From Liopterus haemorrhoidalis (taxonomy: Eukaryota > Arthropoda > Insecta > Coleoptera > Dytiscidae): a stretch of 64,000 nucleotides of DNA. How positions within the stretch are numbered: position 1 is the first letter of the stretch; every line of letters begins with the position of its first letter. The stretch is from the NCBI GenBank assembly GCA_963971575.1, contig OZ020616.1, positions 29,926,306-29,990,305 on the forward strand, in the 5' to 3' direction. The position numbers were made by a program, and so were the translations under genes. The notes below the pieces were generated by a model. That model did not search any database, was not told the origin of the DNA, and saw only the letters and a list, made by a program, of their open reading frames with translations. This document shows positions 13,545-60,045 of the stretch, piece after piece.

Positions 13545-13689
13545 GTTATGAGCAAAGAAAAGGTCTTCACTTCCCAAATAATACAATTGAAGAGCAAAAA
13601 AAAGGTCTTCACTCAGATACAAGTGATGACCTGACCTGCATTGGTGCCCCTCATCAGGCCACGCGCCCTTGTCAAACCTCGCGCCACTG
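13545..13689. mobile_element. hAT MITE right part with AGGTCTTCACT hairpin units
   Basis: Two copies of AAGGTCTTCACT and one GTGATGACCT precede GCGCCACTG, which is an hAT right terminus in complement. The internal hairpin words are those of the MITEs at 30226, 35395 and 45958. The left end is not clear. Confidence 0.45.
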
Positions 13690-14625
13690 TCAAATGCCCC
13701 GATGCCAACCCGTTGAGCAATTCTCATGAAATTTACGAATTTTCAACTAATGCTGCTCGAGTATCGTTCATTAGTTGTTCAATGATGTTGCCCTGTTGGT
13801 ATAGATGTCGCAGGAGTTTTGAGTAATCTGTTTTTAGTAAAGAAATAAGTAAGTTCACTAGTAAAATAACTAGTAATTGTGCTAAAAACGTATTATTCAA
13901 TATTCCTTCGACGTCCTTTAAGACGTAAGATAACCCCACAGAAAAAGGCTGGAACGTTCAACCTGGAAGGTGCTTTATAACTGCTAAGAATTGGACACTA
14001 TATTTAGAGGGTCACCGTAATTGAAATCTGATTTTCGTTATACGTTTTAATAATAGCGTTGGTGAATCGCAGATGTTCATAACAAATTTTCCACGTCTCC
14101 ACTGTTTGATTATCAAATATGAACTGTCAAAATCGAACCAGATCAAAATGACTGCCGATATGTCAATTTGATCAACCAGTAGGTACTTATTTATGCATAA
14201 AGAACATAGTGAATCGAAATGTCTCGGCAAGTAAGTGAATTTCTTATAAAGGGGATTAATAATCAGAATTTTCCATGTTCCATACGCGACCATAGGCGTT
14301 GGGAAAGTTTTGATATTATCATTAGTCAATCCGGCAGGCGAATATGTAGACTCAGGCGTGCACCTCATAGTACAGGTTTGAGCCTTACCCCCAAGATCAC
14401 AAAAATATATTTTTTTAAATCTTGAATTTGACTATTTGCAATTTTCATATCAGTAAATACGAACATGCACCATCTTTATAAGATGGAAACGGGCCAAAGG
14501 GTCTTTAGCGACCAGCTTCCATCTTGAAACTTTTGAATTTCTAAAGATGTTATCACGAAAAAAAAAATACCTTCTGAGCCCTTCTGACCTAAGAATAGAC
14601 TTAAAGTGCGAAATGGAAGGGAAAT
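13690..14625. other. Unassigned tract
   Basis: Several short open frames overlap on both strands without recognisable content. A small inverted repeat, AAGATGGAA with TTCCATCTT, lies at about 14480-14526. Confidence 0.4.
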
Positions 14626-14630
14626 ATGTT
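14626..14630. repeat. Target-site duplication, left
   Basis: ATGTT directly precedes the LTR element and is repeated directly after it at 22255-22259. Confidence 0.9.
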
Positions 14631-15030
14631 ATAACGTATATTACGGCCAGACTCCAGCGTTATATAGTTGGCATACGCCAGCGTCCGCTCAGCTCTCTGA
14701 TCGGTCGCTAAAAACCTAAATGGGGAAAAATATGAATTCCGTAACCACTGTGAAGTGACTCCAGTGGCTATCAGCTGTCCAGGGCAAGGTAGAAGGCCGC
14801 CAGCCCAGTCTAGAGGTAAATGTGACTATGCAGGGTGGTCCTGTAATTATCAATGTCGATGTGCGGCCTAAAATTTATACGGCGCCAGTCACTTCGCTTC
14901 TATTGCCCTAAATTCTGGAAGAAAAATAAAACCCCAGGGGAAGGAATAGAGTTCTCGTGATAGAAACACCAAAATTCTCAATAACCAAATTTATTAACAA
15001 AAAAAAATCAGTAACTAACAAATAGTAATA

Positions 15031-15190
15031 ACAAAATAAATACTATTCGTTAAACGAATATTGAATACGCAAAATCTATAAACAAAATAAATTATCCACT
15101 AAATGAATACTCAATACGCAAAATCTATAAACAAAATAAATTATTCACTAAATGAATACTCAATACGCAAAATCTATAACCAAAATATTA
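15031..15190. repeat. 49-bp tandem repeat inside 3' LTR
   Basis: About 3.2 units, with unit starts at 15052, 15101 and 15150, each containing CAATACGCAAAATCTATAA. The first unit is slightly diverged. The repeat recurs at 19718-19877 in the other LTR. Confidence 0.9.
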
Positions 15191-17116
15191 AGAATTACAA
15201 GATCAATGACCAGTTGAATATTCCCTTTTTAGTTCGGAGTACGACAAAGTTAATACAAAAAAAAATAAATTATTTAATCTACGAGCAAAATATCTAAGTT
15301 AAATCCAAAATTTAGAAAACTAAGTACTCACAAATGGCCAAAGGAAATTAAACAACTGAATCTTTAACCGGTAATTAATTACAATTTAAACTAACAACTG
15401 AATTACTTGCGGTATAAATACCCAGTAACATGTGATTGGATTACTTATGCTACAACTGCCCTAGGGCTACGTGAACTTTTGCACAGGAATATTATACCAC
15501 AGTGATTAATTACGTTGAAAAAAATGGTAACGGTATTCCGGTTGGCAATACCGTTAGGAAAAATCTGGAAGAGTTTTAGAATCGGAAAGCCAGCGCTTGT
15601 TCAAAACCCGATTTAAATTTTTTACTACAATTCTCTCGCCTTAATACTATTGAAATCCCAATCAGTCTATTGGCAACGAAGTCGCGTGATTCAAGAATCC
15701 ATCGTTGTCAAGAGACTGGCTCCATATATCCCCTTTTACTCTTAAAAACCCGTGATACGTCAACAAAAAAATCTCCGCGAGATGCCAAAAAAAATGACGC
15801 ACCACCCTACCCACTGACTCAACGGAAATGATCAAAATTTAAAAAAATTATCGAGACAAAAAAATTAAGGAAGACTGGTCAAAAAAAAATAAATAAAAAA
15901 AAACGATGCTTGTGGCTGAGGTTCTGCCCGATTGAAGTTAACGTTAATTCCTCCCCCTATAATACAAACCCGATCCTTGATAACGTGAACAGCAAGTAAC
16001 ACGAATACTTGACCAGTAAGTATTCAAAGTAAGGAGTAACCTGCGTGTTTGAAAGCTAATTCACAACCTCCAGTTATCAAGGAAAATACTATACAGACAG
16101 ACTGAATTTACATTACGCGGCAAAAATTAAAAATGAGCGATTCGTGAACCAAAAATTATTGTACCTCCAAAAATAATACGGTGACGACACAGTCCACCCG
16201 TACACGCAACAGCGTACTCAATAAATCCAAAACTATCTCAATAACTCAAAAATATCTCAAGATACAACAAAACTTGAGAAACCTCAATGCATTTCAGCTA
16301 ATAATACAGTACAAATAATAACACACACTTAATAATCATGGCCATAACTCATAAGGGTGTACCAGACGCAGCTCTACACTATTAACGTTAAGAATCACAA
16401 AAAAAAACATCCCCAAACGGGAATTCCAATACGTTAATAGGGCAGAGTCGCTTCTGTTACAAAATTTCAAACATTTCCAAAGTATACTCAGCTGAAACAC
16501 AGGAATTCTCGCAACACCCTGTAGCAACAGGTCTCAATTGATACAATAATTTTCACGCTACATCTTCCACGGATCGCTCCAAAATCGGCTCTTCAACCCT
16601 TACATGTGGGGGACAATAAATCTCGAAAGCAGGATCCTCGCTCGAGAAAGAATACTCAACTTAGGCCCGTCCATGTTGCCACTAAATTTACAAAATACAG
16701 AGAAATACTTTACATTAGAACACTGGATTATTCAAAACTGATCAGCGGGTAACACTGTATAAAAGAAACATACCTCGGTGTTTTAGTGGCGAAACGTCGT
16801 AACTCAATTGCCATCTAGGGGTAGAAAACTCCTAATTCCGACGTAAGTCGCGTTTTGCATTCCCAAAACATGATGTATCACGTGCCTTTTCCGCTTAGCG
16901 AATCCACAGGTGAACTGCATTATCTTCTCAAATAATTTTCACAAAAACTTGTGGAATAAAAATTTGGCACGTGTTACTGAGTCTCCACCCCTTAGGGAAC
17001 CTCTATACTTCTTGAATTACGACATTGAAGAGACAAAATGGCATATAACATTCCATTATATATGCCCCCCCTTCACCACTTCCACCTTTCCTACAACTGT
17101 CTGATGGACACTAGAC

Positions 17117-17138
17117 TCACGTGGGCAAAACCACGTGA
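17117..17138. promoter_or_regulatory. E-box hairpin in LTR
   Basis: TCACGTGG, a 6-base loop, then CCACGTGA: a perfect 8-bp inverted repeat holding two CACGTG E-box palindromes. It lies in the outer U3-like half of the LTR, where promoter or enhancer elements are expected. A regulatory role is an inference. Confidence 0.5.
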
Positions 17139-17567
17139 CTCAGACAGTTATCAAAAATGACAACATTCTTTCTTATCGGCGTTAAAAATCACGAATGTCA
17201 ACATTGTATTTTATTACAAGTTGTAAGTATGTTCCTTATATACGTAATACACGCTAATAGTCTGTAATTTCCAGGTTCTAATGAAGTATTCATACTCCAA
17301 AATGCAAAAGAATGTGATTATTCCCATGTGTCAAAATGACATAACCTAAAAGTTTTTGACAGAATACGAGAATTCAGATGTTAATTTATATTTCTGTAGC
17401 AAGAACGGCTACTTTTAAGTAGATTGTCAGGAGGCTAGTCAGTTGGTTTCGCAAAAATACACAATACTGTATCCTTTAATGAGAATAGCATAAGTTTTTG
17501 TACGTTAAGGTAGGTTACGTTAAGGTAGTTTTGTAAGCGGTGGTGTCAGCTTAGATAGGCCGTAACA

Positions 17568-17578
17568 ACTCCCCCTTT
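17568..17578 (-). other. Polypurine tract
   Basis: On the minus strand it reads AAAGGGGGAGT directly before TGTTACGG of the 3' LTR, the expected place for plus-strand priming. Its position confirms the element's orientation. Confidence 0.85.
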
Positions 17579-19310: not shown

Positions 19311-19717
19311 GAAATATATAACGTATATTACGGCCAGACTCCAGCGTTATATAGTTGGCATACGCCAGCGTCCGCTCAGCTCTCTGATCGGTCGCTAAAA
19401 ACCTAAATGGGGAAAAATATGAATTCCGTAACCACTGTGAAGTGACTCCAGTGGCTATCAGCTGTCCAGGGCAAGGTAGAAGGCCGCCAGCCCAGTCTAG
19501 AGGTAAATGTGACTATGCAGGGTGGTCCTGTAATTATCAATGTCGATGTGCGGCCTAAAATTTATACGGCGCCAGTCACTTCGCTTCTATTGCCCTAAAT
19601 TCTGGAAGAAAAATAAAACCCCAGGGGAAGGAATAGAGTTCTCGTGATAGAAACACCAAAATTCTCAATAACCAAATTTATTAACAAAAAAAAATCAGTA
19701 ACTAACAAATAGTAATA

Positions 19718-19877
19718 ACAAAATAAATACTATTCGTTAAACGAATATTGAATACGCAAAATCTATAAACAAAATAAATTATCCACTAAATGAATACTCA
19801 ATACGCAAAATCTATAAACAAAATAAATTATTCACTAAATGAATACTCAATACGCAAAATCTATAACCAAAATATTA
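19718..19877. repeat. 49-bp tandem repeat inside 5' LTR
   Basis: Identical arrangement to 15031-15190. Confidence 0.9.
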
Positions 19878-21803
19878 AGAATTACAAGATCAATGACCAG
19901 TTGAATATTCCCTTTTTAGTTCGGAGTACGACAAAGTTAATACAAAAAAAAATAAATTATTTAATCTACGAGCAAAATATCTAAGTTAAATCCAAAATTT
20001 AGAAAACTAAGTACTCACAAATGGCCAAAGGAAATTAAACAACTGAATCTTTAACCGGTAATTAATTACAATTTAAACTAACAACTGAATTACTTGCGGT
20101 ATAAATACCCAGTAACATGTGATTGGATTACTTATGCTACAACTGCCCTAGGGCTACGTGAACTTTTGCACAGGAATATTATACCACAGTGATTAATTAC
20201 GTTGAAAAAAATGGTAACGGTATTCCGGTTGGCAATACCGTTAGGAAAAATCTGGAAGAGTTTTAGAATCGGAAAGCCAGCGCTTGTTCAAAACCCGATT
20301 TAAATTTTTTACTACAATTCTCTCGCCTTAATACTATTGAAATCCCAATCAGTCTATTGGCAACGAAGTCGCGTGATTCAAGAATCCATCGTTGTCAAGA
20401 GACTGGCTCCATATATCCCCTTTTACTCTTAAAAACCCGTGATACGTCAACAAAAAAATCTCCGCGAGATGCCAAAAAAAATGACGCACCACCCTACCCA
20501 CTGACTCAACGGAAATGATCAAAATTTAAAAAAATTATCGAGACAAAAAAATTAAGGAAGACTGGTCAAAAAAAAATAAATAAAAAAAAACGATGCTTGT
20601 GGCTGAGGTTCTGCCCGATTGAAGTTAACGTTAATTCCTCCCCCTATAATACAAACCCGATCCTTGATAACGTGAACAGCAAGTAACACGAATACTTGAC
20701 CAGTAAGTATTCAAAGTAAGGAGTAACCTGCGTGTTTGAAAGCTAATTCACAACCTCCAGTTATCAAGGAAAATACTATACAGACAGACTGAATTTACAT
20801 TACGCGGCAAAAATTAAAAATGAGCGATTCGTGAACCAAAAATTATTGTACCTCCAAAAATAATACGGTGACGACACAGTCCACCCGTACACGCAACAGC
20901 GTACTCAATAAATCCAAAACTATCTCAATAACTCAAAAATATCTCAAGATACAACAAAACTTGAGAAACCTCAATGCATTTCAGCTAATAATACAGTACA
21001 AATAATAACACACACTTAATAATCATGGCCATAACTCATAAGGGTGTACCAGACGCAGCTCTACACTATTAACGTTAAGAATCACAAAAAAAAACATCCC
21101 CAAACGGGAATTCCAATACGTTAATAGGGCAGAGTCGCTTCTGTTACAAAATTTCAAACATTTCCAAAGTATACTCAGCTGAAACACAGGAATTCTCGCA
21201 ACACCCTGTAGCAACAGGTCTCAATTGATACAATAATTTTCACGCTACATCTTCCACGGATCGCTCCAAAATCGGCTCTTCAACCCTTACATGTGGGGGA
21301 CAATAAATCTCGAAAGCAGGATCCTCGCTCGAGAAAGAATACTCAACTTAGGCCCGTCCATGTTGCCACTAAATTTACAAAATACAGAGAAATACTTTAC
21401 ATTAGAACACTGGATTATTCAAAACTGATCAGCGGGTAACACTGTATAAAAGAAACATACCTCGGTGTTTTAGTGGCGAAACGTCGTAACTCAATTGCCA
21501 TCTAGGGGTAGAAAACTCCTAATTCCGACGTAAGTCGCGTTTTGCATTCCCAAAACATGATGTATCACGTGCCTTTTCCGCTTAGCGAATCCACAGGTGA
21601 ACTGCATTATCTTCTCAAATAATTTTCACAAAAACTTGTGGAATAAAAATTTGGCACGTGTTACTGAGTCTCCACCCCTTAGGGAACCTCTATACTTCTT
21701 GAATTACGACATTGAAGAGACAAAATGGCATATAACATTCCATTATATATGCCCCCCCTTCACCACTTCCACCTTTCCTACAACTGTCTGATGGACACTA
21801 GAC

Positions 21804-21825
21804 TCACGTGGGCAAAACCACGTGA
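21804..21825. promoter_or_regulatory. E-box hairpin in LTR, second copy
   Basis: TCACGTGG/CCACGTGA hairpin as at 17117-17138. In this 5' LTR it would be upstream of the element's transcript. A regulatory role is inferred only from motif and place. Confidence 0.5.
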
Positions 21826-22254
21826 CTCAGACAGTTATCAAAAATGACAACATTCTTTCTTATCGGCGTTAAAAATCACGAATGTCAACATTGTATTTTA
21901 TTACAAGTTGTAAGTATGTTCCTTATATACGTAATACACGCTAATAGTCTGTAATTTCCAGGTTCTAATGAAGTATTCATACTCCAAAATGCAAAAGAAT
22001 GTGATTATTCCCATGTGTCAAAATGACATAACCTAAAAGTTTTTGACAGAATACGAGAATTCAGATGTTAATTTATATTTCTGTAGCAAGAACGGCTACT
22101 TTTAAGTAGATTGTCAGGAGGCTAGTCAGTTGGTTTCGCAAAAATACACAATACTGTATCCTTTAATGAGAATAGCATAAGTTTTTGTACGTTAAGGTAG
22201 GTTACGTTAAGGTAGTTTTGTAAGCGGTGGTGTCAGCTTAGATAGGCCGTAACA

Positions 22255-22259
22255 ATGTT
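22255..22259. repeat. Target-site duplication, right
   Basis: ATGTT, identical to 14626-14630. Confidence 0.9.
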
Positions 22260-24476: not shown

Positions 24477-25153
24477 TCATATTTTAGGAGTTGCTTTATG
24501 TGTTGTTATGAACATTTTCTTGTAGATTGTTTGATCTCGCTTTGTTAAGGACCATGTTTCGGCGCCATTTATAAGTACGGGACGTACTATAACTTGGCAT
24601 AATCTGATCTTGATGTTCCTATATAGGAGCTTTGTTTTGAGGAGGGGACCAAGTGCAAAGTACGATGCATTAACAGTTTTAATTCTTTTCGTAATTTGCT
24701 GCTGTATCAGATTCTTCTGATTTGTCATGGTGTCCAGGTATTTGAAAGTAGAAACTCTCTCAAAAGTGTTGTCATTAATTTTTAAGTCGGCCGTGTTCTC
24801 ATGACTGCTTCTACTAACAATAAGATACTTGGTTTTTTCATTACTGATGATGAGTCCTACTTTACGAGCTTCGACATCAATAAGGTTAGTAAGGTCCTTA
24901 CGTCTTATATTACGTCTCCAACCTAATTTGAAATATTATCCAGGCCATCTGCATACCCTAAAATCTGGTACCCATTGAAGTGTAGATCACGGTGGTTGTT
25001 ATCTTGGGTTTTTCGTAACACTATCTCCAGCACGAGATTAAACAGCAAAGTTGAAGTGGCGTCTCCTTGTTTGACGCCAGTATGAATTTCAAAAGGCTGA
25101 CAAAAACATTGACAAAACATTGTCTTAATTATAATTATTTTTAAAGCTTTCAA
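24477..25153 (-). pseudogene. LINE reverse transcriptase relic
   Basis: Reading down the minus strand: RT block GVKQGD then LLFNLVLEIVLRKTQ (about 25100-25010), the catalytic box as YADG instead of YADD (about 24950), then LIDVEARKVGLIISNEKTKY (about 24880-24820), and the thumb-side GAETWSLTKRDQ (about 24550). It belongs to the endonuclease/RT non-LTR group common in animals. The Asp-to-Gly change in the catalytic box and a frame break between the two long frames make it non-functional. Both ends of the element are missing. Confidence 0.88.
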
Positions 25154-25377
25154 ATTAATGTATAAAACAATTAGAAATGTAGAATTGTAAAATTAGATTA
25201 CATTTTCTGAAATAACAATTAGATCAAATTTAATTCAATAAATTTATCGAAGAGGAATTTATGAATTATATTTCGAAGAGGTATTAATTCGCTGTTGAAG
25301 TCCCTGGTTTCGAATTTTCTTTTCCCTTTTCGAGAAAAAGATCTAGCGTTAACTGCCTAAGTTTCTTTCTTTAAGTG

Positions 25378-29325: not shown

Positions 29326-29381
29326 ATACAAGGTCTGTTCAAAAAGTATCGCGAATTGTGTGTTTTTCAAAAATTATTTAT

Positions 29382-29612
29382 TTATTCATGAATATCTATT
29401 TTGTCCCCTTCAAAGTAATCCCCACCAGATATTATACACTTCTGCCAACGTTTTTTCCAATCCTCGAAGCACTTGAAAAAATAATTTTTTGTGATCTTGT
29501 TCAGCTCCTTCGTCGATGCCGTCTTTATCTCCTTAGTCGTAGCGTAGCGTCGTCCTTTCATGGGCCTTTTCAGTTTCGAAAACAAGAAAAAGTCACAGGG
29601 GGCCAGATCTGG
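29382..29612 (-). pseudogene. mariner transposase C-terminus
   Basis: The minus strand opens with PDLAPCDFFLF, which contains the third catalytic Asp of the mariner D,D34D triad in its usual 'PDLAP' setting. The family-typical tail follows, with KRPMKGRRY, CFEDWKKRW and GGDYFEGD before a stop. About 76 residues remain; the DNA-binding domain and the first two catalytic Asp residues are gone. The frame runs on from the upstream captured piece without a shift. Confidence 0.9.
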
Positions 29613-29815
29613 GCCGTAGCCACTCTTGCCGTTGAACTATTTTATGGTGCCGGAAACCTTACTAGCGATGACTTGCTTTTGCACGGTCGCCTTGGGTTGT
29701 TCTGGCGCCTGTTCCGGTTCAGTCATGGTGTTATGGGCCGGTGGGAAGATGTTATTCACGCCTCTACCTCTCCGAGATGTTAACTTCCTGCCTGCTATTA
29801 CAGTTGTTTAAGCAT
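29613..29815 (-). pseudogene. Captured Y-box protein gene fragment (cold-shock domain start)
   Basis: On the minus strand an ATG at 29726-29724 follows about 90 bases that look like a leader. It reads MTEPEQAPEQPKATVQKQ, VIASKVSGTIK, stop, FNGKSGYG. This matches the start of Y-box/cold-shock-domain proteins: a Pro/Gln-rich N-terminus, then the first strand and the start of the RNP1-like 'GYGF' motif. The conserved Trp after TIK is TAG here (29637-29639). The piece ends exactly where mariner sequence resumes, in frame. Y-box proteins bind RNA and package mRNA; this fragment alone lacks most of the fold. Confidence 0.8.
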
Positions 29816-30225
29816 TTATAGGCAAAAATCGTAGACGAGCCAAAACACGTGCAAGCAAAGCAACTGTCAAAAATTAACTGATCATTCAAAATGGCCGAAC
29901 TTGTCGGCATAAGTGAGAGACATGAGTACCGACATAACGTCACAAAAAAATCTAAAATCGAATATACGTAACCCGCGGAAATTCAAAATTCGCGATACTT
30001 TTTGAACAGACCTCGTATATGTCACTCTCATAATGTTCATGGCAATTTCTAGACATAACGGAAATGTCTTCTTCTTCTTTTTTCTTGTACTGATAACAAT
30101 TTTGTTCGCTCTGATGCGGAAGACGAATTCCGCAGTCTTCTTCCTGTGTTCTATCTCCAAGTGTTCCCTTCCTCTCTTATTTTCTACTGGATATTGACTA
30201 TTTTAGCGTTGTCATGCCCTTCGAT

Positions 30226-30447
30226 CAGTGGCGCACCCGGGGATTTTTGTTGGGTGGGGGGCGGAAGACAATTATTTAAATTATGAAAATATAAAGTGAT
30301 GACCTAAAAAAAGAAGGTCCTCAATTCTAAAATACAAGTGACGACCTAAAAAAAAAGGTCCTCATCTCTATTTTTAAAATTTTCTAGTGTGTTTTTATTT
30401 TTATTTCCTCCCTTCTTAGGGGGGGGGGCTCCCTGGGTGCGCCACTG
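30226..30447. mobile_element. hAT MITE, CAGTGGCGCACCC family
   Basis: Inverted ends CAGTGGCGCACCC and GGGTGCGCCACTG, with a perfect 8-bp duplication CCTTCGAT on both sides (30218-30225, 30448-30455). The interior has two hairpin units of the GTGAYGACCT...AGGTCCTCA kind. There is no coding capacity. Confidence 0.93.
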
Positions 30448-45957: not shown

Positions 45958-46244
45958 CAGGGTGACCAGGTCTCAGGTTTTCACCCGGAGTTCCAGGGTT
46001 TCCGGCCAGAGTCTCAGGGCTCCGGGTTTTGTTATAATATCTTCGGGTTTGTAGTTTGGAGGTGAGGACCTTGTTTTTTTTTTTTTTTGCTCATGATTTT
46101 GTGTCTTGGACCCTAGGACCTTTTTTTTTTGTTCATCACTTATATTTTGGAAGTGAAGACCTTGTATTTTTTGGAGGTGAGCAAAATTGAATCCATTTTC
46201 TTTTCAATCTTAGGGTCTACCTTAACTGAAATCTGATCACCCTG
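45958..46244. mobile_element. hAT MITE, CAGGGTGACCAG family, nested in a LINE
   Basis: Ends CAGGGTGACCAG and CTGATCACCCTG; flanks ATTAGATC and GTTAGATC (7 of 8). Interior words GTGAGGACCTTGTTTTTT and GTGAAGACCTTG belong to the hairpin set also seen at 35490. Confidence 0.9.
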
Positions 46245-59639: not shown

Positions 59640-60045
59640 TTTTACATTAAACTATCACCTTGGAAATACTGCCCTTCTGCGGCTAGACATTACTTCTAGC
59701 ACTTTTTCCACTTCTGGAAATATGTTTTGTTGGCAATCGCTTTTAAATCAGTTTGCGATTTTTTTAAAATGTCTTTAACCGCTTGATAACTGCGGCCTTA
59801 TAACTAATTTTTCAGATTTAGGGTTTTCGCTTCTCTAAAAAATACCGAACCATAAGAGAAGTGTGAGTTGGTGCTTTGTCGTGATTGTCGATATTGATCA
59901 AAATGTGATATTGGAAACTCTCTAACAGTCTATCGTCGATTTGTTCGGATAAATTCACACACCTAAATATCCTTTTCGTCAGTTTTAAAAATTGTAGGCC
60001 TACGCGATCTTTCATTATCTTTGATTGAATTTTTTAAAACATCTG
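59640..60045 (-). pseudogene. Tc1/mariner transposase C-terminal relic
   Basis: The minus strand reads HDKAPTHTSLMVRYFLEKRK, the family's 'HDNApaHts' box with the second catalytic Asp, and later TDLKAIANKTYFQKWKKC and LAAEGQYFQGD, the usual 'f.kW..C...eG.YF.gd' tail. Between them the frame is broken and the third catalytic box is not recognisable. No inverted ends seen. Confidence 0.8.

Follow-up and report, generated by a model that had tools for sequence, protein, structure and literature searches.

An amplified mariner derivative in the beetle Liopterus haemorrhoidalis carries a spliced piece of its host's Y-box gene, fused in frame to transposase coding sequence

Inverted-repeat DNA transposons that hold a stretch of host sequence between their two arms (Pack-TIRs) were surveyed in animals by Tan et al. 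(2021), who report 370 such elements, 115 of them TcMariner, and give none for the insect reference genomes (PMC8277862). Four Pack-TIRs (1.4%) are described there as multicopy and are attributed to later transposition, and the pipeline, according to section 14, discarded intronless copies of multi-exon genes (PMC8277862). With 115 of 370 animal cases in TcMariner (PMC8277862), gene capture by Tc1/mariner-type elements is less exceptional than the original prediction for the element described here supposed. Where DNA transposons of animals have captured genes, the usual explanation is the copying of DNA, either in gap filling or in fork switching, and the usual account of internal deletions in mariner is abortive gap repair (PMC4678618). 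Templates of another kind are described for class 2 templated sequence insertions, where spliced cDNAs are among them (PMC5110952). The largest animal survey that we found left out such cases by design, so that its counts do not cover the pickup of spliced RNA by cut-and-paste elements (PMC8277862). The mariner family reported here lacks an intron of its parental gene and joins the two exons exactly, which points to an RNA template.

The window, that is, the whole stretch of 64,000 nucleotides that was analysed (contig C5, positions 29926306-29990305), was compared with its own assembly of 1,020,077,131 bases (1.02 Gb) in 91 contigs. A TA-flanked deletion derivative of mariner containing about 200 bases of non-mariner sequence had been predicted in it, and such an element is present (Table 1), with a host-identical block at 29614-29808. 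The capture that had been placed at 29613-29815 is real, but its limits had to be redrawn, since 29809-29816 are junction bases that could be ascribed to neither parent and mariner sequence begins at 29613. Read on the minus strand, the element gives in one frame MTEPEQAPEQPKATVQKQVIASKVSGTIK, a stop, and FNGKSGYG followed immediately by PDLAPCDFF, which supports the predicted in-frame joining of a Y-box leader, ATG and N-terminus to transposase coding sequence. Because mariner resumes at 29613, the last glycine codon is a hybrid of the two; in mariner relatives from the database, the native neighbour of PDLAPCD is PPYS. The Y-box part resembles the Y-box protein YB-1 (PDB; best E 0.0023, residues 15-38), and the transposase part resembles the Mos1 transposase (E 1.6e-5) and insect mariner proteins (up to 87-89%). 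Neither piece matched in Pfam, an Rfam search of the window returned nothing, and nothing was found in viral contigs searched for mariner relatives and for the element pattern. The inverted repeats of the window element extend over 37 nt at 94.6% identity, or over 42 nt at 90% by a second measure.

Table 1. Features of the chimeric mariner element in the window (positions are those of the window)
Feature	Position	Strand	Description or basis
Chimeric non-autonomous mariner	29329..30015	-	687 bp here, 688 in the majority consensus; inverted repeats
TA target-site dinucleotide, one side	29327..29328	.	sequence
TA target-site dinucleotide, other side	30016..30017	.	sequence
Mariner 5' arm of 199 bp, with inverted repeat and untranslated leader	29817..30015	-	aligned with ordinary mariners up to base 199
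Eight junction bases, AATGCTTA	29809..29816	-	in neither parent at that place; partly resemble both sides; same in the 15-copy consensus
Captured stretch of host Y-box mRNA, 195 bp	29614..29808	-	exon 1 gives 143 bases and exon 2 gives 52; the 608-bp intron is absent
Join of exons 1 and 2 within the capture, ATCG^CTAG	29665..29666	-	parent reads ATCG^GTAAGT ... TTTTACAG^CTAG
Captured Y-box start codon	29724..29726	-	sequence
In-frame TAG where the parent has TGG (Trp)	29637..29639	-	private to the window copy in the 15-copy alignment
Fusion frame, 114 codons and stop	29382..29726	-	37 Y-box, 1 hybrid Gly and 76 transposase codons; broken by the TAG in the window copy
Mariner 3' arm, 285 bp in the window copy	29329..29613	-	transposase end, starting at the third catalytic Asp region, then the 3' inverted repeat; Mos1 match

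Three other features of the window may be recorded here. A direct duplication of about 2.95 kb (14621-17568 and 19311-22255) has 99.9% identity between its units, which lie 4.7 kb apart, and is recent. The minus strand at 59648-59883 carries an older and different mariner remnant, which matches the same transposase at 72% across 18 residues and at 32-34% across 59. Also on the minus strand, at 24480-25192, are open frames that, judged by eye, resemble a remnant of a LINE reverse transcriptase.

A search of the assembly with 29613-29815 found both the parental gene and other mariner copies with the same insert. The 20 matches comprised 14 copies, that of the window among them, covering at least 198 of the 203 query positions, one copy given in two rows owing to a deletion (L023), and a truncated one (L025). 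Two other rows belonged to the parental gene, and the last was a diverged fragment (L024) that is considered below. The chimera is present in this assembly at 15 near-complete loci, the window included, and at the one truncated locus. The near-complete copies are 636-722 bp long and align throughout, and both junctions are common to all 15. TA, the target-site duplication expected of mariner, stands on both sides of 13 of them; L014 and L021 have a lost or altered 3' end, and the ends were set by hand to within a few bases. The surroundings of the copies are essentially unrelated: among 30 flanks of 500 bp there was one matching pair (L013 and L009; 103 bp, 78%, in opposite orientation). The TA dinucleotides and the unrelated flanks indicate separate transpositions, and the flanks, with the exception of the one 103-bp pair, rule out segmental duplication as the source of the copies. 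The 15 further loci likewise rule out a one-off error of assembly or an artefact of a single locus.

Divergence from the majority sequence, with the last 60 columns left out, was 1.6-3.0% in 14 copies and 5.1% in L021, and it was alike across the parts of the element (5' arm 2.2%, captured block 2.2%, 3' arm 2.9%). Most variants are private to single copies. Some are shared, one of them by six copies, so that more than one source copy may have taken part in the spread. The 3' arm of L010 contains 37 inserted bases that are a repeat, in part inverted, of adjacent mariner sequence, a small templated insertion.

Loci of the native mariner family were collected with the relative's transposase P0001, for which the best 150 of 61901 first-look candidates were scored, giving 151 matches. 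Thirty native loci were cut out, and 24 were judged to have both arms by the thresholds that we set, the other six not being counted. Fourteen of the 24 are near full length, with an interior of 791-837 bp, eight have an interior of 215-216 bp and two of 467-477 bp. With 10 of 24 loci deleted, internal deletions are frequent in the native family, and 20 further loci (18 with both arms, two cut or incomplete) added two more deletion classes. Among the deletion derivatives, classes of about 700 and 920 bp have been amplified with shared breakpoints, one of them with a few filler bases (L044, L046, L047, L049, L052, L053, L055, L056; L074-L092). A second insert from a host gene was found neither among the 24 both-arm loci nor among the 18 both-arm loci of the further set. 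One native 5' arm does hold about 185 bp of extra sequence (L085:285-469), similar to a dispersed repeat of which the window has copies as well, for example near 13554-13603, 30306-30356 and 46121-46171.

The native full element has 1322 bp (199 + 837 + 286), and the majority consensus of the chimera has 688 bp: the mariner 5' arm makes up the first 199 bp, eight junction bases and 195 bp from the host follow, and the mariner 3' arm supplies the last 286 bp. The chimera therefore replaces the 837 bp between mariner bases 199 and 1037. The original prediction had foreseen that the insert might turn out to be ordinary element sequence of full-length mariners. This is ruled out, as native elements carry 837 bp of transposase at that place (exactly 837 in L027, L032, L042 and L045). 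The short terminal inverted repeats are common to the chimera and its full-length relatives, whose transposase is Mos1-related and has the DD34D spacing, with 34 residues between the second and third catalytic Asp, as counted by eye on P0001 (native loci are up to 93% identical to P0001). Only the last 76 transposase codons are retained in the chimera, which makes it a non-autonomous derivative. Its consensus arms are the same as the majority sequence of the sampled native arms, 19 for the 5' arm and 25 distinct copies for the 3' arm (27 rows, of which those of L038 and L040 overlap). This agreement, together with the similar divergence of the three parts, indicates that one founder, made when the native family was still near its consensus, spread in that same period.

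The parental Y-box gene, whose presence in the host had been predicted, was found at locus L022 on contig C1. It reads CAAGTCATCG^GTAAGT...TTTTACAG^CTAGTAAGG, with an intron of 608 bp. The 195-bp consensus block is identical to the spliced L022 exons at 195 of 195 positions and is not continuous in the unspliced gene; the window copy itself differs at 5 of the 195. This complete identity, and the recurrence of the chimera at 15 further loci, show that the chimera is not a chance likeness. The gene is a multi-exon one, with six matched stretches over about 45 kb and further exons downstream. The near-identical Y-box protein P0121, whose named closest relatives are mostly beetle proteins (for example from Brassicogethes, Nicrophorus and Trypoxylus), matches the host's exons at about 93-96% over most stretches and at 79% over the repetitive tail. 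It has the spliced form, and in P0122, a protein from a relative, the same exon end runs on into the intron. When the limits of the capture were compared with the exon edges of the gene, the outer edges did not coincide with any, but the exon 1/exon 2 join lies exactly inside. The insert starts near the predicted 5' end of the transcript, as judged by a TATA-like box 58 bases upstream.

We could find no other intronless Y-box copy in the assembly with P0121, a search that gave 20 matches from 23 candidates. Four rows belonged to the parental gene, 15 to the chimeric elements, and one was weak (E 3.2e-4, 56% over 42 residues, in the glycine/arginine-rich part), so that the only intronless Y-box pieces found by this search sit inside mariners. 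The fragment L024 (C5:54308216-54308285) is a diverged exon-1-like sequence of 70 bases at 89% that stops at the exon edge; it was rejected as an intronless template, since by eye it reads a few bases into the intron. Given that the 608-bp intron is absent and that no other intronless copy was found, the template was a spliced RNA or cDNA, or a retrocopy since lost, and not the gene itself. The proposal that repair of an excision gap had copied another locus does not fit with the lack of this intron in the near-complete copies. In a broader form, it would have gap filling or fork switching (FoSTeST) copy the genomic locus, with the intron lost later, or copy a retrocopy that is now gone. Such copying is the accepted origin of most animal Pack-TIRs (PMC8277862). 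Nevertheless, we consider it improbable here, as the insert joins two exons exactly where the gene has an intron, with not one intron base left, and no retrocopy was found; the position of the parent on C1, with copies on many contigs, means that nearness gives no guide.

The junctions themselves bear on how the insert was made. At the upstream junction, native mariner reads GCCTATA followed by CCAAAAAATGGATC, and the mariner bases CCAAAA that adjoin this junction are missing from the chimera. At the downstream junction, native mariner reads CCGTATTC followed by CCCAGATC and the parental gene reads TACGG followed by GTTTATT, so that the join is blunt and without microhomology. A search of both strands, covering about 1.2 kb of the parent and a single native element (L032), found no template for the eight junction bases. 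The CTT among the eight is also present in the parent, in register, and the host edge of the capture may thus lie a few bases further out, with one change. Neither poly(A) nor a target duplication is present at the inner junctions. Both would be expected of a processed pseudogene made by LINE machinery, whereas this copy ends inside exon 2 and runs straight into mariner. What is seen is the combination described for class 2 templated sequence insertions, namely spliced exons, no poly(A) or target duplication, and a deletion with extra bases.

From these features we think it probable that the family is a Pack-type non-autonomous mariner that was filled from RNA, a cDNA patch having sealed a break or gap in a mariner that afterwards moved in trans. 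A double-strand break or an excision gap would have arisen within a full-length or an already shortened mariner. Rather than being fully copied from the sister, the gap would have been closed with a short cDNA, made by reverse transcription of Y-box mRNA and put in as a patch by end joining, as has been proposed for class 2 templated sequence insertions (PMC5110952). The resulting chimera could then have been mobilised by the transposase of full-length relatives, and relatives with the full 837-bp interior and frames of the right kind are its putative helpers. We favour the cDNA patch because the lack of poly(A) and of an inner duplication, the loss of 837 bp, the eight extra bases and the blunt far join are the signs of class 2 insertions. 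A point against it is that no progenitor mariner with a break has been seen.

An alternative scenario has two steps: LINE-type machinery would have inserted a 5'-complete Y-box retrocopy near the mariner start codon, and a later deletion would have run from its exon 2 to the PDLAPCD region. This would explain the missing intron and the start of the insert near the predicted 5' end of the transcript, and the internal deletions that it calls for are frequent in the native family. We think it unlikely, as it requires two events, no intermediate with a longer Y-box stretch or a poly(A) was among the matches, and the upstream junction has lost CCAAAA and shows no target duplication. The same sequence would result from a retrocopy that was trimmed inside mariner, or from one that acted as template and then disappeared, and its present absence is compatible with either course. 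The weak point of our interpretation is whether the cDNA was itself the patch or whether a retrocopy, since lost or trimmed, came in between.

Whichever the template, one ancestral element gave rise to a 688-bp form with intact inverted repeats that now occupies at least 16 loci. Plain deletion derivatives of nearly the same size are common in the native family (199 + 215 + 286 = 700 bp, as compared with 688 bp), and we conjecture that this likeness in size is a reason for the good spread of the chimera.

The consensus frame encodes MAEPEQAPEQPKATVQKQVIASKVSGTVKWFNVKSGYG and 76 transposase residues, 114 in all, and is intact. Six of the 15 copies are open: L009, L016 and L017 with 114 residues, L011 and L013 with the stop lost and five residues more, and L015 with three fewer. 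Two are broken by stops (L026, which is the window copy, and L012) and seven by frameshifts or deletions (L010, L014, L018, L019, L020, L021 and L023). The guess that other copies would lack the in-frame TAG was right, for it occurs in one of the 15. Synonymous changes make up 10 of 39 in the Y-box part (p 1.0) and 24 of 103 in the mariner part (p 0.58), where 26% would be expected on the basis of 84 non-coding changes in 13 copies of the element itself. The copies drift neutrally after insertion, and selection on the fusion after insertion is rejected by these counts.

One could still envision that a Y-box/transposase fusion protein, or some regulatory action on Y-box or transposase, lies behind the spread of the family. 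The intact 114-codon consensus with its open copies, and the retention of the host gene's native start context, would be in keeping with this. We regard it as very improbable, however, since the changes in the copies are those expected in the absence of selection, many plain deletion derivatives reach about this size too, and both domains are incomplete: the cold-shock domain breaks off at GYG, and all that is left of the transposase triad is the region of the third Asp. A structure model of the open copy L009, built from a thin alignment of 11 sequences, had a mean pLDDT of 42.5 and gave no support for a fold. Nor was such a fusion seen among its database relatives: of 60 proteins examined, out of 120 listed from 253 hits, none has a Y-box part, including nine listed with more than 72% query coverage. 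The sequence does not, then, indicate a function for the fusion; the in-frame join was probably luck, at one chance in three, and the spread of the element was most likely that of a passenger. It seems unlikely that the Y-box gene or transposition is still acted on by a fusion protein from some of the copies, or by RNAs that correspond to the 5' region of Y-box, and that RNA-templated capture is a general route which has been filtered out of sight.

The finding is thus a multicopy, RNA-derived Pack-mariner, which is richer than the single odd copy first noted. The chimera family is young, both parents are in the same assembly, and the ancestral product can be read. If the pickup of spliced RNA is frequent, cut-and-paste transposons would offer a way for exon combinations without introns to become joined to transposase coding sequence and scattered. 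Searches of the open-licence PMC literature, among them ones on mariner together with retrocopies or Y-box, listed no description of this chimera or of a mariner carrying a spliced host fragment.

Several described systems share part of this picture. Like the animal Pack-TcMariner elements, the chimera is an inverted-repeat DNA transposon with a host fragment, of identified parentage, between the two arms of one element (PMC8277862). It differs from the elements reported in that survey in its copy number of at least 16, its insect host, its spliced filler and its in-frame fusion; it works like a Pack-TIR, yet the filter against intronless copies would exclude it from the list (PMC8277862). Rice Pack-Mariner elements likewise combine mariner-type inverted repeats and TA with captured coding DNA, and mostly have low copy numbers (PMC8903248). 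They are from plants, and an RNA origin is not discussed in the main text of that paper, in which the words intron, spliced and mRNA do not occur (PMC8903248). Turmoil-1 of C. elegans, with pieces of rsp-2 and cpg-3, is an animal DNA transposon with transduplicated exons of a gene for an RNA-binding protein (PMC2572040). It is a Harbinger element with the captured piece lying within the inverted repeats, and its rsp-2 piece was captured as DNA, because the intron is kept (PMC2572040). The human class 2 templated sequence insertions are likewise short spliced-cDNA patches at breaks, with a micro-deletion, extra bases or microhomology, and no poly(A) or target duplication; these, by contrast, lie at ordinary chromosomal sites and not in a transposon, so that the patch is not amplified (PMC5110952). 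SETMAR, too, is a fusion of a host domain to mariner transposase coding sequence (PMC8616336), but it arose the other way round: at a single locus a transposase was added to a host gene, whereas here a transposon gained and multiplied a host fragment. The nearest RNA-derived case that we found is a hAT element with an intronless histone H3 in the fungus Pseudocercospora fijiensis, where a DNA transposon also amplifies a captured transcript or retrocopy and the exon-exon junctions are the proof (PMC6710886). That element holds a near-complete coding sequence, in hundreds of RIP-mutated copies and with no transposase-coding fusion in its description (PMC6710886), whereas the beetle mariner carries a short spliced piece joined in frame to transposase codons.
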